Below, one piece after another: positions 12,596-38,523 of a stretch of DNA of 64,000 nucleotides. The stretch is from positions 1 through 64,000 of the forward strand of contig SKCR01034810.1 in the NCBI GenBank assembly GCA_019454045.1, in the 5' to 3' direction. Under the pieces are notes generated by a model, which saw only the letters and a list, made by a program, of their open reading frames with translations, was not told the origin of the DNA and did not search any database. Position 1 is the first letter of the stretch, and every line of letters starts with the position of its first letter. The translations under genes were made by a program, and so were the position numbers. The DNA is from Zanthoxylum bungeanum. Its lineage: Eukaryota; Streptophyta; Magnoliopsida; Sapindales; Rutaceae.

Positions 12596-12905
12596 TCAGT
12601 ATAGTTCGAGAATAAACAAGCCGAGAATGGCACTCCGAGAATGGAGCACAGTTCGAGAATGAACAAGCCGAGAATGAACAAGCCGAGAATGACACTCCGA
12701 GAATGGAGCACAATTCGAGAATGAACAAAAGCCGGGAATGACATTCCGAGAATGGAGCACGGTTCGGGAATAGATCACCTCACAGCACGGATTGGGAATG
12801 AACCACCTCACAGTAACATTTCGGGAATGGACCACCTCATAGTAACGGTTCAGGAATGGACCATCTCATATAGTACAGTTCGGGAATGAACCATTACATC
12901 AGCAT
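12596..12905 (+). repeat. Tandem array block: 'cgagaatgaacaagc' units
   Basis: Short units combine 'cgagaatgaacaagc', 'cactccgagaatggagcac' and, further right, 'cgggaatgaaccacctca'. Period and wording differ from the flanking blocks, so the array is a mosaic of families sharing 'gg.atg' cores. Confidence 0.8.
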
Positions 12906-13555
12906 CAGCATCAGTTTTGGGGATGAGTCCAGGGCTGAGGCCCACATCAGTATCAGTCTGGGGGCGAGGCCCATATCAGTATCAGTTTTGGGCGAGGCCC
13001 ACATCAGTTTGGGGCGAGGCCCACATTAGTATCAGTTTGGGGCGAGGCGCATATATGTTTGGGGCGAGGCCCACATTAGTATCAGTTTGGGGCGAGGCCC
13101 ATATCAGTTTGGGGCGAGGCCCACATCAGTATCACTCTGGGGGTGAGTCCCACATCAGCATCAATCTGGGGGCGAGGCCCACATTAGTATCAGTTTGGGG
13201 CGAGGCCCATATCAGTTTGGGGCGAGGCCCACATCAGTTTCAATCTGGGGGCGAGGCCCACATCAGTTTTGGTCTAGGGGCGAGGCCCACATCAGTGTCA
13301 GTCTGGGGGCGAGGCCCACATTAGTTTCAGTCGGGGGGCGAGGCCCATATCAGTATCAATCCGGGGCAAGGCCTACATCAGTATCAGCTTGGGGATGAGT
13401 CCCAGGGCGAGGCCTACACTAGTATCAGTTTAAGGCGAGGCCCACACTAGTATCAGTTTGGGGCGAGGCCCATATCAGTTTGGGGCGAGGCCCACATCCG
13501 TGTCAGTCTAGGGGCGAGGCCCACATCAGTACCAGTTTAGGGTCGAGGACCCACT
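12906..13555 (+). repeat. Tandem array block: ~30-bp 'gggcgaggcccacatcagt' units
   Basis: About twenty or more units of 'ttggggcgaggcccacatca' plus 'gtatcag' run nearly uninterrupted, with 'tggggatgagtccca' variants interspersed. It is the same unit type as 1560-1990. The 135-codon frame at 12917-13324 is a Gly/Arg/Pro-rich by-product of repeat length. Confidence 0.9.
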
Positions 13556-14630
13556 ACATCATCAGTTCAAGGGTGAGGTCCCTATTGTCAGCGGTGTTGG
13601 GTCGAGGTGCCCAGGGTCGAGGTGGCCCCCGTGTTGGTTGTAGTTCCGGGTCGAGGTGCCCAGGGTCGAGGTGCCCACTACATCATCAGTTCTAGGTCGA
13701 GGTCCCTATTGTCAGCGGTGTTGGGTCGAGGTGCCCAGGGTCGAGGTTGCCACCATTGTCGGTTGTAGTTCCGGGTCGAGGTGCCCAGGGTCGAGGTGCC
13801 CACTACATCTTCAGTTCGAGGGCGATGTCCCTATTGTCAGCGGTGTTGGGTCGAGGTACCTAGGGTCGAGGTGCCCCCGTTGTCGGTTGTAGTTCCGGGA
13901 TGCGTCCCAGAGTCGAGGTGCCCACTACATCATCATATTGAGGGCGAGGTCACTATTGTCAGCGGTGTTGGGTTGAGGTGCCCAGGGTCGAGGTGCCCCC
14001 GTTGTCGGTTGTAGTTCTGGGATGCGTCCCAGGGTCGAGGACCCACACATCATCAGTTTAAGGGTGAGGCCCACTTTGTCAGCAGTGTTGGGTCGAGGTG
14101 CCCAGGGTCGAGGTGCCCCCGTTGTCGGTTGTTGTTTCCAGGATATGTGTCCCAGGGTCGAGAGCCCACTACATCATCAGCTTGAGGGCGAGGTCCCTAT
14201 TGTCAGCGGTGTTGGGTCGAGGTGCCCCCGTTGTCGGTTGTAGTTCCGGGATGCGTCCCAGGGTCGAGGTGCCCACTACATCATCATATTGAGGTTGAGG
14301 TCACTATTGTCAGCGGTATTGGGTCGAGGTACCAGGGTCGAGGTGCCCCCATTGTCGGTTGTAGTTCCGGGATGCGTCCCTGGGTCGAGGTGCCCACCAC
14401 ATCATCATATTGAGGGCGAGGTCCCTATTGTCAGCGGTTTGGGTCGAGGTACACAGGGTCGAGGTGCCCCCGTTGTCGGTTGCAGTTCCGAGATGCGTCC
14501 CAGGGTCGAGGGCCCACTGCATCATCATCACAGTTCACATTCGGTGGTTCGGGAACAAAGCCTAGAGGTCGAGGCGCCTCGCCACCATATCTACTACATC
14601 ATCAAATCAGTTCGAAGCAGCGGGCAAACC
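13556..14630 (+). repeat. Tandem array block: ~120-bp higher-order units
   Basis: A longer unit repeats about eight times. Its order is 'gggtcgaggtgcccacta', 'catcatcagttcgagg', 'tccctattgtcagcggtgtt', 'gggtcgaggtgcccccgtt', 'gtcggttgtagttccggg', 'atgcgtccca'. 'gggatgcgtccca' and 'gggatgagtccc' are small dyads. It degrades from about 14530 into single-copy sequence. Confidence 0.85.
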
Positions 14631-14718: not shown

Positions 14719-14732
14719 AAAGTGGGGGCGAC
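14719..14732 (+). other. Polypurine tract of the Tat-type gypsy element
   Basis: AAAGTGGGGGCGAC directly precedes an LTR start (tataggcattgc; the better copies at 34402 and 37489 read TGTAGGCACTG). An 'aaagtgggggca' tract before 'tgtag' is characteristic of Tat/Ogre/Retand-type gypsy elements, which is the basis for the clade name. Confidence 0.7.
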
Positions 14733-14879
14733 TATAGGCATTGCATTTTTGCATATCAGCCCGATGATGAGTCTCGTATGGAGGCACTACCTCTTTAGTC
14801 ATGAAAGTCGCGGGAAAGACGTTGGAAGGGTAAAGTTGGAAATTAGCATTTGGTCGGATTTAACTCGCTTGTTTCGCTT

Positions 14880-15290
14880 CGGTTCACTTGTTGGACCTCT
14901 ATTTTAAACACATATCACAATTAAATAATTAAAACATTTAAAATTGTGTCACAATCAAATAAAACAAATCAATTAAACTTAAATTAAATTAAATTAAAAC
15001 ACATTCACAAATTAAAAGATATTAAATTAAATCAACAAATTAAATAACTAATTGAAATTTAATTAAAACTAACTAATTATTAATTCAAATTAATAAAACA
15101 AATAAATTTAAATTAAATACCAAAATTAAATAATTCACTTCCAATTAAATCAAATCAAATCAATTCATTCCTAACTTTAATAAATCACTCACCAATTTAA
15201 TAAATTTAACCCCCAAAATAAATATCCTTCCTAAACTATTAAATCAAATACCACACATGCATTATAATTGATTTGCTTCCTTTAGATCCT
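14880..15290 (+). other. AT-rich, gene-free part of the Tat LTR
   Basis: The sequence is dominated by 'aattaaattaaa' phrases. Nothing codes here. Equivalent but shorter AT-rich sequence follows the LTR start at 34680-34900. Confidence 0.6.
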
Positions 15291-15644: not shown

Positions 15645-17602
15645 TGGTGGTTTCTATAATATGTCCCAAGGAAAGATTAAGCATTTGAAATACAACAATG
15701 AATATATATATTAAAAGATGAAGTATGGCAGAATCATACTTACAATGCTTTAGTGATGAAGAAAATCAAACCAAAATGGAAGCTCCAAGTTGGATGATGC
15801 GGCCAAGAGAAGAGGTGGAAGCTCCAAGCTTTGTGTATTCCAAGCTCTTTGATGGTTTCCCTATCACCTCTTTATGATCCCTTGAAGGTGTAGCCTTGTG
15901 TGTGAATATATGTTCCAAACAACCACAATTTCTTCAAGTTTTTGCAACAAAAAATGAGAATGGAGAGCCCAAAACTGTTTCAGGTTTCGGCAATTTGAGA
16001 GAGAGAAAGAGTTGTGTAATTGATTTTTGTTACCAAAAATCAATTTATATTTATGCCATGATATTTTATTAAATTAATAATAAACTTATGACACAAACCA
16101 TGCAATGGCTTAGAGTGTCAAACACTCAAACTCCATGCAAAACAATTGAGTGTATTGTACACTATCACCATGCAATGCATTATCAATTAAATAATGCATA
16201 TAATGACATGTGTCATGTGGGCCCCACACGTTTCCAAATGAAGTGGGCCCACGTGCACTCACGCGTTCGGGTTCGATATTTCCGAAATACCGAACTTACG
16301 TCGCGACGTTAATTAAATCGAATTTAAATAAATAATTGCGCCTGCGAAATTATTATTTACGTCGCTAACGATTAATTCTAAATTAACTCGTATGCCCGAA
16401 TTAAAATCTAATTTTAATTTCGCGTCGAAATCGAATTTCGATTATTATATCGAATATAATAATTTTATCGATTAATTCCAAATTAATCGTTCTCTCTCTC
16501 TAAACAAGGCACTTTATCCAAGATAAAGTTTCTCCGCAATTAATCCAAGATTAATTAAGTTCGAATCAAATATCATAGGTGAATCTTCAGGAAGCGACCC
16601 AAGAGATCTCCGGATATGTTGGCAGTAAATACGGTCGTCGGATAATCCGAACACGTACGTACCTCGTACTACGTTCTTACCGATTCACAAGACAAGGTTG
16701 GCTTCTAGCAAAGCGCCATGCCTACCCAATTCTCCAGAAATATTCTTATGGAATATAAGATCTATATCAAGCGTAGTATACCGTAGTATTGCGTACATCG
16801 ATCCAGTATCGGATGATCACATGTTAGGCCTGGGGCTGGAGATGTGTCTGCCCCGTACGAAACATATATCGGACATCAAGCAACTAGTCTCTTTAAATCG
16901 GACAATCCTGACCTGGTCATATTGTCCCGACGGTTGCAACCTTTTATAGAGTACTAGTTCTGTGTCCTGCGTGATCATCACCTCCATATGTCTGAAGTGA
17001 TACTTCCATCTCGACATCACATCCAGTACACTACGATTCTCGATAAACCCAGAAGAGGTGTACACAGACCGGTTAAGGTCCCCAACCACCAAAACCAAAG
17101 TTTACCGATTGTCGCAAGTACTAGCGATGTAAGTCTCAGGTTAAGACCATATACACCTACCCTGATGCGGCCTCCCATAGACACGCAGACATACTACCAA
17201 TGGGATTCCGCGGGGTCTATCCAGAGCGAAGCTGTTTTCCGTACCATCGGTAAAACACAACCTCCTATCGCACTTGCATAAGTATCCAATACTTAAATAT
17301 ATGAGAACTATGCCGTTGTGCCCTCACAACGTGCACAAGCGCAATACTAGTCTATTCCGCATTATCGATGTCCGATCTCGATAATACTCCGACTAGGGAT
17401 ATTTAATGATTAAACCTTTATGGATTGATACTGTCTCATATCATCTCAATCCGTATTAATCATATGGACTTTCGCCATTTATATATCAAAGTAAATAATA
17501 TTACAAAACGGCAAAAGGCAATTTCATTATCACATAGTTAATTTTGTACAATAATACAATATCATTTACAAACAGTGACGCTATGGGACATAATGTCTAA
17601 CA
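15645..17602 (-). repeat. Copia B 3' LTR
   Basis: On the plus strand it runs from TGGTGGTTTCTATAA to ATGTCTAACA, and it borders the polypurine tract on the right. Compared with the other B LTR it differs mainly by 1-2 base indels in homopolymers. Its right half is related to the LTRs of A, C, D and F. Confidence 0.92.
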
Positions 17603-17613
17603 ATCTCCCACTT
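17603..17613 (-). other. Polypurine tract of copia B
   Basis: Minus-strand AAGTGGGAGAT sits against the 3' LTR. The gag-pol stop codon lies only a few bases away (17617-17619). Confidence 0.85.
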
Positions 17614-23741: not shown

Positions 23742-25698
23742 TGTTGGTTCTATAATATGTCCCAAGGAAAGATTAAGCATTTGAAATACAACAATGAATA
23801 TATATTAAAAGATGAAGTATGGCGGAATCATACTTACAATGTTTAGTGATGAAGAAAATCAAACCAAAATGGAAGCTCCAAGGTTGGGATGATTCGCCCA
23901 AGAAGAGAAGAGGTGGAAAGCTCCAAGCTTTGTGTATTCCAAGCTCTTTGATGGTTCCCTATCACCTCTTTATGATCCCTTGAGGTGCTAGCCTGTGTGT
24001 GATATATGTTCCAAACAACCACAATTTCTTCAAGTTTTTGCAACAAAAAAATGAAGAAATGGACAGCCCAAAACTGTTTCAGGTTTCGGCAATTTGAGAG
24101 AGAGAAGAGAGTTGTGTAATTGATTTTTTGTTACCAAAAATCAATTTATATTTATGCCATAATATTTATTAAATAATAATAAACTTATGACACAAACCAT
24201 GCAATGGCTTAGAGTGTCAAACACTCAAACTCCATGCAAAACAATTGAGTGTATTGTACACTATCACCATGCAATGCATTATCAATTAAATAATGCATAT
24301 AATGACATGTGTCATGTGGGCCCCACCGTTTCCAAATGAAGTGTGGACCCACGTGCACTCACGCGTTCGGTTCGATATTTCCGAAATACCGAACTTTCGT
24401 CGCGACGTTAATTAAATCGAATTAAATAAATAATTGCGCCTGGCGAAATTTTATTTACGTCGCTAACGAATTAATTCTAAATTAACTCGTATGCCCGAAT
24501 TAAAATCTAATTTTAATTTCGCGTCGAAATCGAATTTCGATTATTATATCGAATATAATAATTTTATCGATTAATTCTAAATTAATCGTTCTCTCTCTAA
24601 ACAAGGCACTTTATCCAAGATAAATTTCTCCGCAATTAATCCAAGATTAATTAAGTCCGAATCAAATATCATAGGTGAATCTTCAGGAAGCGACCCAAGA
24701 GATCTCCGGATATGTTGGCAGTAAATACGGTCGTCGGATAATCCGAACACGTACGTACCTCGTACTACGTTCTTACCGATTCACAAGACAAGGTTGGCTT
24801 CTAGCAAAGCGCCATGCCTACCCAATTCTCCAGAAATATTCTTACTGGAATATTAGATCTATATCAAGCGTAGTATACCGTAGTATTGCGTACATCGATC
24901 CAGTATCGGATGATCACATGTTAGGCCTGGGGCTGGAGATGTGTCTGCCCCGTACGAAACATATATCGGACATCAAGCAACCAGTCTCTTTAAATCGGAC
25001 AATCCTGACCTGGTCATATTGTCCCGACGGTTGCAACCTTTTATAGAGTACTAGTTCTGTGTCCTGCGTGATCATCACCTCCATATGTCTGAAGTGATAC
25101 TTCCATCTCGACATCACATCCAGTACACTACGATTCTCGATAAACCCAGAAGAGGTGTACACAGAACCGGTTAAGGTCCCCAACCACCAAAACCAAAGTT
25201 TACCGATTGTCGCAAGTACTAGCGATGTAAGTCTCAGGTTAAGACCATATACACCTACCCTGATGCGGCCTCCCATAGACACGCAGACACTACTACAATG
25301 GGATTCCGCGGGGTCTATCCAGAGCGAAGCTGTTTTCCGTACCATCGGTAAAACACAACCTCCTATCGCACTTGCATAAGTATCCAATACTTAATATATG
25401 AGAACTATGCCGTTGTGCCCTCACAACGTGCACAAGCGCAATACTAGTCTATTCCGCATTATCGATGTCCGATCTCGATAATACTCCGACTAGGGATATT
25501 TAATGATTAAACCTTTATGGATTGATACTATCTCATATCATCTCAATCCGGTATTAATCATATGGACTTTCGCCATTTATATATCAAAGTAAATAATATT
25601 ACAAAATGGCAAAAGGCAATTTCATTATCACATAGTTAATTTTGTACAATAATACAATACATTACAAACAGTGACATTATGGGACATAATGTCTAACA
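23742..25698 (-). repeat. Copia B 5' LTR
   Basis: On the plus strand it spans TGTTGGTTCTATAA to ATGTCTAACA. It is nearly identical to 15645-17602. Within it, 24675-25387 is open on both strands (see separate entry). Confidence 0.92.
24675..25387. other. Conserved LTR block open on both strands
   Basis: A 157-codon sense frame (25387-24914, starting MDTYASAIGG) overlaps a 123-codon antisense frame (24675-25046, starting MNLQEATQEISGYVG). Matching antisense frames exist in A (2859-3041 and 10943-11125) and C (54555-54737), and matching sense frames in A (10411-10617) and D (60170-60454, shifted start). F and D have lost the antisense frame. No protein family is recognised. Conserved regulatory DNA or RNA is as likely as coding. 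Confidence 0.4.
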
Positions 25699-26830
25699 CT
25701 TCCCACTCACCGACACAGGCCACACCATGCAGACACATAGCATCTCTCTAACAAAACAAAAAGAATAAACCCTAGATGGCTCTCACTCTCAGCACCACAC
25801 AGTGAGCCACGCACCAACCCTAGATGGCATCTACACCAAAGACCAACTTCACTCAAAACCCTACACGCCACTGACCTTAGCCACTCACACATACGTTAAC
25901 AGGCAGCCACGACCCACTTCCTTTCGCGCCCTTAGTGCCACCACTCGTTCATAACGCCAGCCCTCCACTCAAGCACCTGCTGCCCTCAGCCTCATCAAGC
26001 CCACAATCCCCACAATAACAGGTAGCCAGCCTCAAAGCAGCCCTCACTAGCCCTCACGAAGCAAACCTCACCTCACGCAATTGCCCTTCCAACAAACCCA
26101 TCATACGCACGCACTTGACCCTTCCCGCATCTGACCATTCACGTAACAATACCCTCCAACTAAGCCATTACTTCAAGCCAATAGCCCTCAACTCAACGCC
26201 ACAAGTCCCACATCGATCAGCTACTGCCTCCCTCAAAGACACACGCACAGCAGCCCCTCACTCCCTCTTCACGCGCAGCACACACTCGGCACCATTCACC
26301 AGCCACGCCACTCTCACCTAAACTCACGCACACAAACCGACTAAACTGCCCCTAACAAAACTCACGAGCTTCACGTAGACAAACTGCTCATGCTAATCAC
26401 TCACAGCACACACGAACCATCGACCACAAGCAAGCAATACCCCCACTAACGCATGAACAACAATAGCCACTCAGACCTCACACGTCCCACATCGGCCACA
26501 ATCAACAAGACCACTCAAGGCCCTCCACCAATTTCACCCCTCATACACACACGTGAAACCCAACTCTACACCACCCTTGTTTCACGCATCAGCCCCTCAT
26601 CCAGCCTGCCTTCCATCCACGCCCAACTGCCCTCCATTACCCACGTACTGCCACGCATCCAAATAGCCTTCACGCACCAACAGTCAGTACATTTTACCCA
26701 TTCACGCACCAAGAGCCTTCACGCCAAACTGCATTCCCATAAACCACGCCAAACTAACCTCACATTCACACAAAAAACTGCCCAGAATTCCCCTTAAAGA
26801 TCACCAAAATCGCAGCCCCTTAAACCCTTA
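25699..26830 (+). other. C-rich, G-poor part of Tat LTR
   Basis: The plus strand is rich in 'cactcacgc', 'caaccctag' and 'ccctcact' phrases and poor in G. Open frames such as 26453-26797 are Thr/Pro/Ser/His-rich products of composition. A shorter C-rich region occupies the same place in the LTR at 34980-35640, and its complement is in the inverted arm at 36270-36930. Confidence 0.6.
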
Positions 26831-27733
26831 AAACCGACACCAAAAATGTCCCTAAATTGCCTTAAAACAATAACCAAAAAATACCTTGAAAACAGCTGTC
26901 CAAACAGCGAAACAGCGAGAAAAAAACGTTGGATTAGTGAACCAGAAAAATTGCGGAACATCAACCCTTCCAACGGACGTGTAACGCCCTTTCTTAGACG
27001 AAAAAAGAGGTTAGACCTGAGGCACCTTTTTTTACTTATCTTCTTTATCTTTGTTTTATTTATTTTGATATATAATTGCATGAGAGTCGTTTTTGAAGCA
27101 TGATGTGATTGTTGGATGAGCGGGATGTGTATTCCTTTTGTGGTATATCGGATGGAAACCGGACATAAATTCCATAGCCGATTCCGAATGGACGGTAGTA
27201 GTCTGGTCTGCACTCGGGATACAATGCCACGTACCACTTAAGATACACGTATCTCGTCTCATCCAAATTTGTATTTGAGCATGTTATAGTCTTTAGGTTA
27301 TTCGTTTATTATTTAAAGCATGTTTAATTTAGTTTGTTATTTATTTGTTAAAGCATATTTAGGTTGTTCTTTATGCATGTTATTAGTTTATGATGTGTTT
27401 GGGTAATGATTTATACATGTTGATTTGATGGTTTAATATGCTCGTTGTGTTACATTGTGTTGAGTTAATTTGATGAAAGCCTGATTAGATCTAAATACCC
27501 ATGAGCATGATTATTGAGTAGACTTGGTTGATTCATTGCACAAATTATATCATCACAAGTGACATAAGTAAGGGACCATTCCGAACCCAACGGTTTGAGG
27601 TCTTCCCTTGCGAGGGGTGAGTGCGGCCTTAAATCTTTGTCCCGGTTCACACCGGGTGGCGACTCCATGTTATTTCGTACTTCCCAACTAGGCCGCGAGC
27701 CTAGAACAGCGTCGTCAAGTTCTGTTGTCTACA
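26831..27733 (+). other. 3' part of the Tat LTR
   Basis: The segment moves from the C-rich zone into T-rich sequence (27030-27480, with 'gcatgtttaatttagttt') and then the well-conserved end 'agggaccattccgaac', 'gtcttcccttgcgagggg', 'gtggcgactccatgttatt', 'ggccgcgagcctagaaca'. The same end is found at 36070-36260. No gene is seen. Confidence 0.6.
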
Positions 27734-34152: not shown

Positions 34153-34401
34153 TGTTGGTTCCTAGAACATGCCAAAGATCTATAAGTCATGATTTCATAT
34201 GTGAATAATCAAAGAAGTTGGAGAAAAAATACTTACAATGAGCCAATGTAGTATTTCAAAAATATTTTAGTTTCGGAAGCTCCAAGCTTTGTGTTGAATC
34301 TTTAATTCCAAGGATGAGTTTCCATATTACGTTCTTTAACTCCTTGTGTGCTAGAAATGTTGAAATTTTGCAACAAAAATCTCAAGAACAAGAAAGGGTA
34401 T

Positions 34402-36269
34402 TGTAGGCACTGTATTTTTGCATATCAGTCTCTTTGATGAGTCTCGTATGGAGACACTACCTCCTTAAGTTGTGGAAGCCTCGGGAAACAGACATCGGAA
34501 GGTAAGAGTCAAGAATTGACATTTTGTTGGATTTAATTCATTGGATTAGCTTCGGGTTCGCTTGTTGGACCTCTGTTTCAAAACACATACCAAGCCCACA
34601 CACCACCAAACCAAACACCCAAGCCCACCAAAACAAAGCAACTCACGCCCAAATCAACCTAAGCCACACGCCCAACACTTCCCAAATTAAACAAAAATCA
34701 CATTAAACACATGCATGAATCAAGCCAAATCCCCTTCCTAAATGAAAGAAATCACATGGATCCCTTGCCTAATTAAACCAAATCATATCCCTAACTAAAA
34801 GAGAATAAATCAAATTAAATCAAATCACTTCTCTAAATTAAAAGATTTCCTTATCACATACCAATTTAATAGATATTCCCTTTAATGCACAAATCATTCT
34901 CCTTCGCAAACAAGGAAAGCCCCCATCCATTTGCCTATAAAAAGAACCCTTCACCAACACATTAAAACCCTAGCTCATTCTCACAAAAAACACAAATAAG
35001 TAACCCATTTCCGTCCACACAAAGCCCTGAAAATCACCTCCATTGACGTCAAACCAATATCCCTAAAGCCCTCCATTACCGTGAACAATATCCCCACAAA
35101 CAACCTGCCCATTCACGCGTCAACTGCCTGCCCATTCACGCCTAGCCACTTAAAAAATCCACTCACGCACAGTCCCCCTCATTGCCTCAACTCACACCTA
35201 GCCACCTAAGGTCATTCACGCCTAGCCCCCCACTGTCTCAACTCACGCACATCCCCACTGTCTTAACACCAAGCCACTGCCCCAACGCAAAACACTAATG
35301 CTTGCCCTTCAATTCAGCCAGTAAACTGCCTCACAAATCACCAAAAAAAACACCCATCACTGCATCCCCAAAACAGCCGCATAAAACCCCGCAGAACCAG
35401 TCCTTCACAGCCGCAAAACACTGAAACTGTCAAGCCCTTCAACTGACGCACATACCCTCATAAACTGCCCAGTTTGTCGCAGATTTAACCATAGAAAACT
35501 CCCCCAAACAGCCTTAAAACTGCACTAAAAACAGTCCAAAAAAATGCCCCCAAAACAGTCTAAAAACTGCAGCCCAAACCAGTCAAAATAACCCGCAAAA
35601 TAGTCCCTTAATTACAAAAAAATAGTGACCAGAAAATACAGCGAAAATAACAGTGAAACGGAGTGAAAACAGAAGCCCATATATTCGAGCATGATTTAGT
35701 CTAGTAGATTATTTAGCATGATTAGGTTGCTAGTATGTTATCTATTATTTAAGCATGATTTAGTCTAGTACATTATTTTTTTAAGTATGATTATGTTATT
35801 TATTTATGCATGATTTAGTTCTTTAATTTTACATTAGTAATTTAGTTTACGTTTATGTGAAGTAACTATTTATTTGTTATTTGCGTTGGATGATTCAATA
35901 TGCTCGTTGTGTGATATTATATGCTTGCCGTTATAATGACTTATTTTTAAAGCATGCGAACTTAGTAATAGGATTTATTTTGATGAAGGCGGACTAGGTC
36001 TAAGTTACCTTTGAGCATACATGTTGAGTAGATTCGGTTACTTTATTGCACAAATCATATCATTACAAGTCACATAAGTAAGGGACCATTCCGAACTCAA
36101 CAGTTTGAGGTCTTCCCTTGCGAGGGGTGAGTGCGGCCTTAAATCTTTGTCCTGATTCACACCTGGTGGCGACTCCATGTTATTTCTCTGGTTTAGTTCC
36201 CCGCGAGCTATTCTGTACTCCCAACTAGGCCGCGAGCCTAGAACAGTGTCGTCAATTTTTGTTGATTCA
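34402..36269 (+). repeat. Left arm: complete Tat-type LTR (1868 bp)
   Basis: It runs from TGTAGGCACTG to about 'tttttgttgattca', the degraded counterpart of 'ttctgttgtctaca' at 27733. The first ~1230 bp pair with the right arm. The last ~640 bp, with 'ggtggcgactccatgttatt' and 'ggccgcgagcctagaaca', are unpaired. Confidence 0.75.
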
Positions 36270-37489
36270 TTATTTTTTGGTAATTAATGGACTGTTTTAC
36301 GGGTTATTTGGACTGGTTTGGGCTGTGGTTTTTAGTCTGTTTTGGGGACAGTTTTTTAGAATGTTTTTAGTGCAATTTTAGGGCTGTTTGGGGGCGTTTT
36401 CTGGGGTTAAATCTGTGGCAAACTGGGATGTTTATGAGGGTATGTACGGCAGTTTAAGGGCTGGACAATTTCAGTGTTTTGCGGCTGTGAAAGACTGGTT
36501 CTATGGGGTTTTATGCGGCTATTTTGGGGATGCAGTGAGGGGTGTTTTTTGGTGATTTGTGAGGCAGATTACTGGCTGAATTGAAGGGCAGGCGTGAGTT
36601 TTTGCGTTGGGGCAGTGGCTTGTTGTTAAGGCAGTGGGGCTGTGCGTGAGTTGAGGCAGTGAGGGGCTAGGTGTGAATGACCTTAGGTGGCTAGACGTGA
36701 GTTGAGGCAATAAGGGGGACTGTGCGTGAGTGGATTTTTAGGTGGCTAGGCGTGAATGGGCAGGCAGTTGATGCGTGAATGGGCAGGCTGTTTATGGGGA
36801 TATTGTTCACGGTAATGGAGGGTTTTAGGGATATGTTTGGACGTCAATGAAGGTGATTTTCAGGGCTTTGTGTGGACGACAATGGGTTAACTTCTTTGTG
36901 TTTTTTGTGAGAATGAACTAGGCTTTTAATGTGTTGGTGAAGGGTTCTTTTATAGGCAAAGGGATGGGGGCTTTCCTTGTTTGAGAATGAGAATGATTTG
37001 TGCATTAAAGGGAATATCTTTTAAATTAGTATGTGATAAGGAAATCTTTTAATTTAGGGAAGTGACTTGATTTAAATTGATTTATTCTCTTTTAGTTATG
37101 GATATGATTTGGTTTAATTAGGCAAGAGTTCCATGGGATTTCTTTAATTTAGGAAGGGGATTTGGCTTGATTTATGCATGTGTTTAATGTGATTTTTTTT
37201 TTAATTTTGGAAGTGTTGGGCGTGTGGCTTAGGGTGATTTGGGCGTGAGTTGCTTTGTTTTGGTGGGCTTAGGTGTTTGGTTTGGTGGTGTGTGGGCTTG
37301 GTATGTGTTTTGAAACAGAGGTCCAACAAGTGAACTCGAAGCTAATACAGCGAATTAAATCCAACAAAATGTCAATTCTTGACTCTTCCCTTCCGACGTT
37401 CATTTCCCGCGGCTTCCACAACTTATGGAGGTAATGTCTCCATACGAGACTCATCATAGGGAGTTATATGCAAAAATGCAGTGCCTACA
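36270..37489 (-). repeat. Right arm: inverted partial Tat-type LTR (1220 bp)
   Basis: On the minus strand it reads from TGTAGGCACTG through the C-rich zone and stops inside the LTR near 'taattaccaaaaaata', about 640 bp short of the LTR end. Its truncated side is fused to the finish of the left-arm LTR. Confidence 0.8.
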
Positions 37490-38523
37490 GGTATGTTCGG
37501 CCATGAGGGAGAGAATAAGAGAGATGAAGTGTTTTCTTTGTATTTTGTTTCTAAAACCAAAATTACAAAGTCAACTGATTCAATTTGTGTATATGTTTTA
37601 CCAAAAGCAAAAAACAAAAGGTGTTGGAGGGAAAAATGGCAATTAATGCCTCCAACCACTTTCATCACTCAAGTTGACACTTGATGGACAAATGATGCAA
37701 GTTGGTGGGACCCACTTTAATTCAAAATTCAAGTGGCTTGCTCAACACACTTCGGGCTCGGGTTTGCTTAATCCAATTAAACAATTTTTCCGTCGCAACG
37801 TAATTAAATTCAATTTAATTAATTAATAGTGCCTCGCAAAATTATTACGAAAGTCACTCGCGAATTAATTCTAAAATAATTCGTTCGCCCGAATTAAAAT
37901 ACAATTTTAATTCCGCTTTGAAATCTAATTTCAATTAATATATCCAATATATTATTTAATCAATTAATTCCAAATTAATCACGCTCTCTCTTCTAATTAA
38001 ATTTTATCCCAGTTAAATTCTTGCCGCAATTAATCCCACATTAATTTTATCTCTCTTATAATTAATCCTAGATTAATTCTGTTCGAGTCAAGTATCATCG
38101 ATGAATCTTTGGGAAGAGACCCAATAGATCCTTGGATATGTTGGCAGTAAATCCGATCAACGGAATTTCCGAAAACATGTGTACCCCGTACCACGTTCTT
38201 ACCGATTTACAAGACATGGTTGGCTTCTAGCAAAGCACTGTGCCTACCCAATTCTCCAAAAAATATTCAATAAATAATATATAATTTTTATCAAGCATAG
38301 TATACTAAGTATTGCGTATTACGATCCAATATCGGATGTCACATGCTATGCCTGGGGCTGGAATTTTGTATGCCCCGAACGAAGCATATATCGGATCACT
38401 AGCAACTAGTCTCTTTAATCGGATAATCATGACCATGTCATATTATCCCGATAGTGCAACATATTAGAGTATCAGTTCGGTATCCATGCGTGATCATCAT
38501 CTCCATATGACTGAAGTGATACT

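Follow-up and report, generated by a model that had tools for sequence, protein, structure and literature searches.

How can retrotransposon DNA come to lie in a plant genome with the start of a long terminal repeat (LTR) at both of its ends? This question is raised by a unit of 3088 bp, found at positions 34402-37489 of the 64,000 nucleotides of Zanthoxylum bungeanum DNA analysed here. This whole stretch (the window) lies on contig C31214 of the 3.96 Gb genome that was searched. The unit is a real, unusual single insertion, and it is best read as a variant of the LTR products that arise by template switching.

Structure of the insertion

The unit opens at its left end with TGTAGGCACTG, closes at its right end with CAGTGCCTACA, and is bordered on both sides by GGTAT, a 5-bp target-site duplication. 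These termini and the flanking GGTAT copies, described in an earlier note on this DNA, are seen directly in the sequence. The features are as follows.

34397..34401, no strand: left target-site duplication GGTAT (8/8 fetched empty sites uninterrupted, one with AGTAT)
34402..35628, + strand: left inverted-repeat arm, beginning at the LTR start (self-alignment)
34402..36262, + strand: forward LTR, 8 bases short of its finish (where relatives have GTCCTACA) and with about 355 bp missing internally
34936..34943, + strand: TATA-box-like TATAAAAA at LTR position 535, a putative promoter element
35629..36266, + strand: unpaired spacer of 638 nt between the innermost arms (remaining forward LTR and filler)
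35681..35682, no strand: deletion breakpoint, at which about 355 bp of a full LTR, that of C33152, are missing in the alignment (short TATA homology at the ends)
36263..36266, no strand: filler TGAT between LTR tail and inverted arm, adjoining a shared TTTyTG; this joint was found once
36267..37489, - strand: right arm, LTR positions 1 to about 1227 reversed, ending at the LTR start CAGTGCCTACA (self-alignment)
37490..37494, no strand: right target-site duplication GGTAT (sequence and fetched empty sites)

The inverted arms, 34402-35628 against 37489-36267, are 91.7% identical over 1229 aligned columns. TG...CA ends and a short direct target duplication are present, and there is an LTR start at each outer end of the unit. 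The pairing of start and finish that belongs to an ordinary LTR integration product is absent: there are two starts, and the LTR finish is missing. A genome search that allowed up to 3 mismatches gave a single occurrence of the breakpoint pattern of the internal deletion, which may have preceded or followed the insertion.

The LTR family

The 16-base LTR start TGTAGGCACTGCATTT occurs 25,711 times in the genome (12,884 forward and 12,827 reverse), with 0 occurrences for the reversed control. It is carried by the right end of the unit, and the left end differs from it by T for C at base 12, in agreement with the earlier claim that both joined ends are LTR starts. The two LTR ends, when read inward, are TGTAGGCACTG and TGTAGGACACAG, which are nearly identical. 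The TATA-like box is kept in each arm, at LTR position 535 or 536. In a related copy (L096), one of the three ORFs scanned, lying downstream of the LTR, encodes a gag of the PF03732 type (Retrotrans_gag). Such a gag is expected in the Ty3/gypsy Tat lineage, the putative affiliation behind the label Tat in the earlier note, but it is not Tat-specific. The closest relatives of the LTR vary with the segment considered (outer 600 bp, inner 600 bp or last 580 bp), a comparison which suggests that LTRs of this family are mosaic.

The window holds other traces of the family. Diverged pieces of the start and end of its LTR, with 78-80% identity, are found at 14732-14917 and 27462-27727, about 13 kb apart. 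Between them lies a pair of repeats, 15652-17612 and 23748-25707, which are 97% identical and are probably the LTRs of a nested element. A further region, 12903-14528, gives overlapping direct self-matches and resembles a tandem array with diverged units.

The site before insertion

The flanks of the unit were joined with one GGTAT into a query of 500 bases representing the empty site. The alignment was contiguous in 40/40 scored candidates (the best 40 of 6,744), at 91-94% identity, and in all 40 it spanned query base 1-9 to 498-500. All eight copies that were fetched (8/8) are uninterrupted, seven reading GGTATG and the eighth AGTATG. The earlier proposal that removal of the unit restores the host sequence is thus borne out, and the contiguous flanks and uninterrupted copies imply that the unit entered as one insertion. 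Given the target duplication together with the empty site, the entire palindrome was inserted at once, with two U3-type ends, as had also been proposed.

The host sequence is itself a repeat. Among the 40 scored matches, those sharing a contig have the same orientation, and three pairs are 10.5-10.7 kb apart, which makes the host repeat LTR-like. Copia-type gag/pol ORFs are found downstream, at 42.1-44.5 kb of the window, and would be part of the same host element.

Palindromes are error-prone in long-read data, and the palindromic structure of the unit therefore brings an assembly artefact into consideration, a concern already expressed in the earlier note. An artefact of palindromic reads would give near-identical arms, however, and here the arms differ at 94/1221 aligned sites, with private changes in each arm. 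The duplication is clean and the empty site is present. The arm differences weaken the concern without removing it, and we regard misassembly as extremely improbable.

The 94 differences comprise 52 transitions and 42 transversions, giving a K2P distance of 0.0815. Substitution rates for plant LTRs are 1.3e-8 or 0.65e-8 per site per year, from which the insertion would be about 3 or 6 million years old, if the arms were identical at insertion.

The inner joint

The LTRs of relatives finish with ...CTGTGTCCTACA. In the window the LTR ends at 36262 (...TTTTTGT), eight bases before the CA end used by integrase, and is followed by TGAT and then by the inverted arm from 36267. A short TTTyTG beside the joint is common to the LTR tail and the inverted interior. 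In the earlier description the finish of a complete LTR is fused to the interior of an inverted LTR. The finish is in fact incomplete, the inverted arm starts at LTR position about 1227, and the joint lies between 36262 and 36267 rather than at 36269/36270.

A loose motif search of the fetched loci gathered 37 distinct LTR tails, the window joint included. The tail GTCCTACA is exact in 28/37 and has a one-base variant in 7/37, a total of 35/37. The remaining two are the window joint itself and a doubtful locus, L033, which matches GTCCTACA only with two edits (GTCTAGA) at the expected place; judged from its sequence, the L033 LTR is probably also truncated at its end. Since the terminus is present in 35/37 tails and absent at the joint, a precise integrase joint is unlikely here.

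This bears directly on the mechanism suggested in the earlier note, in which an LTR finish attacks a second cDNA (autointegration) and the two free starts then integrate. Such an event should leave two U3 starts free and an LTR tail attached to an LTR interior, and in outline this is what is seen. However, autointegration would be expected to preserve the LTR end exactly where the two molecules meet; in place of a precise CA-3' joint the last 8 bases are lost and a 4-base filler is present, which argues against it. Later erosion of the joint would have to be added, and we consider autointegration very unlikely.

A search for recurrence

A family of mobile elements of the foldback type, derived from an LTR, would account for a spacer between two long inverted arms and for the target duplication around them. 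The joint was sought elsewhere in the genome. A search allowing up to 3 mismatches gave one occurrence, that in the window, and a search allowing a variable gap again gave one. Using a 301-bp query across the joint, the window alone spans it among 40 scored matches, the best 40 of 5,664 candidates. That the joint and the deletion of about 355 bp are each found once points to a single event rather than a family. The foldback suggestion in the earlier note finds no support in these searches of the assembly, and we give it almost no credence.

Pairs of convergent LTR starts were also sought. Among 100 of the 25,711 starts listed, one such pair within 12 kb was found, on C14; none was seen among 100 of 394 matches listed in a further start search, and among 100 of 315 matches listed there were four close pairs, all in the same orientation and none convergent. 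These lists are samples of the genome, and such insertions may recur elsewhere in it. The C14 pair (L095, C14:49650-55050) served as a negative control. Its starts face outward and are 5.3 kb apart, its 5-bp flanks are unequal, and only the outer ~112 bp match, indicating that chance nesting looks different from the unit described here.

The control is relevant to another explanation, that an ordinary forward LTR insertion was altered later, an inverted start replacing the right end by repair or conversion at CCTACA. The LTR finish (GTCCTACA) and the inverted start (GTGCCTACA) do have their last six bases in common, and the internal deletion is evidence of rearrangement, at one time or another, in this copy or in its parent. 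Nevertheless, a later replacement requires a switch no more than 6 bases from the target duplication, and a reversed donor LTR as well; the C14 pair, in addition, has unequal flanks and matches only over its outer part. We judge later replacement to be distinctly unlikely.

A proposed mechanism

As read from the sequence, the comparisons establish one insertion event with two LTR-start ends and an inner joint 8 bases before the LTR finish, a joint found once. We think it reasonably probable that a palindromic LTR cDNA was formed during reverse transcription and then integrated via its two U3 ends. Plus-strand strong-stop DNA, with its start at the U3 terminus and its end at the U5/primer site, would be extended to a few bases before the LTR finish. 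Its 3' end would then fold back on itself, or move to a sibling plus-strand DNA, at TTTyTG near LTR position 1235, and be copied back to the U3 terminus. The product would be U3-R-U5 followed by part of an LTR in inverted orientation, so that both ends are U3 termini, and integrase would insert these two ends with a 5-bp duplication. On this proposal palindrome formation would take place on cDNA, by a strand switch and a second-strand step, and integrase would act as the inserter; the switch could be within one molecule or between two.

Three observations lead us to place the switch at the cDNA stage. Plus-strand strong-stop synthesis ends at the LTR finish, and the joint is 8 bases away from it; a random breakpoint would fall within 8 bases of an LTR finish in about 0.4% of cases, a rough estimate for an element of roughly 9.3 kb, this size being based on a single LTR pair (C15553) with a spacing of ~7.1 kb. 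The right arm ends at the U3 terminus, as expected of a DNA template whose 5' end is the U3 start. Finally, the likeness of the inward-read ends TGTAGGCACTG and TGTAGGACACAG makes a U3/U3 pair plausible as an integrase substrate. Counting against this proposal, the four filler bases are unexplained by simple priming, a single example was found, and the inner stretches of the arms are sometimes closer to other copies (C24967 or C21341) than to each other.

The ancestry of the arms was examined with trees on three segments of the LTR, with 24, 17 and 14 rows, both arms included. The rows were drawn from 31 named copies and the two arms; copies covering under 85% of a segment were dropped, C747 (which has the same matches as C35277) was left out, and C21341 is absent from the tree of positions 900-1227 by the coverage filter. 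Whole arms were compared with 9 copies, including C747, and inner arms with twelve copies. For positions 1-585, the attachment points of the arms are ~0.003 substitutions per site apart, which suggests that little difference separated the outer parts of the arms when they were inserted; several relatives attach nearby. When the arms were held as sisters the AU p value was 0.365 for positions 1-585 and 0.185 for 900-1227, and in the tree of positions 600-920 the arms are grouped, with branch support 54/74; a sister relationship of the arms is neither established nor rejected by these values. In 901-1227, C24967 and the left arm are 93.2% identical, compared to 89.5% for arm against arm; in 601-900, C21341 and the right arm are 95.3% identical, compared to 92.9% for arm against arm. 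At positions 1160-1227 the left arm has 2/68 differences from C24967 and the right arm 1/45 from C21341, as against 8/68 between the arms. The inner-arm relationships, as far as these alignments go, would be no worse explained by two parental molecules than by the fold-back of a single one.

They also lend something to a bimolecular concerted integration, in which two separate cDNAs each contribute one U3 end to the same integration complex, and their distal parts are linked by end joining with the interior lost. It would account for U3 at both ends and the target duplication, for the four filler bases and the short homology beside them, and for inner arms that are locally nearer to other copies than to each other. 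It requires the near-total loss of two interiors, and yet one breakpoint falls 8 bases from the LTR finish. We regard bimolecular integration as possible, though doubtful.

Relation to known elements

Several known arrangements share features with the unit. A solo LTR has a start at one side and a finish at the other, with a 5-bp duplication and no interior. The unit likewise is LTR sequence without an interior between 5-bp duplications, but it lacks the finish and has an inverted start in its place. Snap-back and autointegration of retroviruses give inverted arrangements of LTRs or cDNA before integration, and an inverted arrangement of pre-integration origin is what we propose here, although the exact LTR CA terminus that autointegration would leave at the inner joint is absent. 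Foldback transposons, with long inverted repeats, have long inverted arms, a spacer and a target duplication, as does the unit; they differ in that its joint was found once and its arms are the LTRs of a very abundant retrotransposon.

The closest precedent found is a group of complex LTR elements, which Sabot and Schulman (2007, PMC1950507) explain by template switching during reverse transcription and identify from their flanking 5-bp target duplications. As described there, they contain two cores and three LTRs, the outer ones being alike; on the model given, all three would have the same direction. From that description, the unit resembles them in having an abnormal LTR arrangement in a single insertion with a target duplication around it; in contrast to them, it has no interior, part of the second LTR is inverted, and U3 is at both ends. 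A palindromic LTR insertion running from U3 to U3 was not found in open-access titles and abstract openings, among the matches listed, which is a weak negative with the subscription literature mostly outside it.

Implications

Integration using two U3 ends is usually discussed for integration in the test tube, and the unit is an apparent genomic fossil of such integration in a living plant. It has a signature that can be searched for directly in plant genomes assembled from long reads: two outward LTR starts, equal 5-bp flanks, and an inner joint near the LTR finish. It is conceivable, if rather unlikely, that strong-stop DNA of this abundant family self-primes into U3-ended palindromes accepted by integrase, giving recurring, unannotated, short mirror-image insertions. 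If so, they would escape annotation tools for which direct LTR repeats are a requirement, and the inward-pointing TATA-like boxes in both arms could yield long hairpin RNA against the family itself. A transcript begun in either arm would enter its own complement, and is thus predicted to form a hairpin; for the two 663-base arm stretches inward of position 565 the predicted duplex has 616 pairs and -1097.5 kcal/mol. Hairpin RNA from the unit, and silencing by it, is a speculation based on this folding prediction. The unit also points to the strong-stop stage as one at which strand switching could generate inverted LTRs, and such LTRs may trigger small-RNA silencing.
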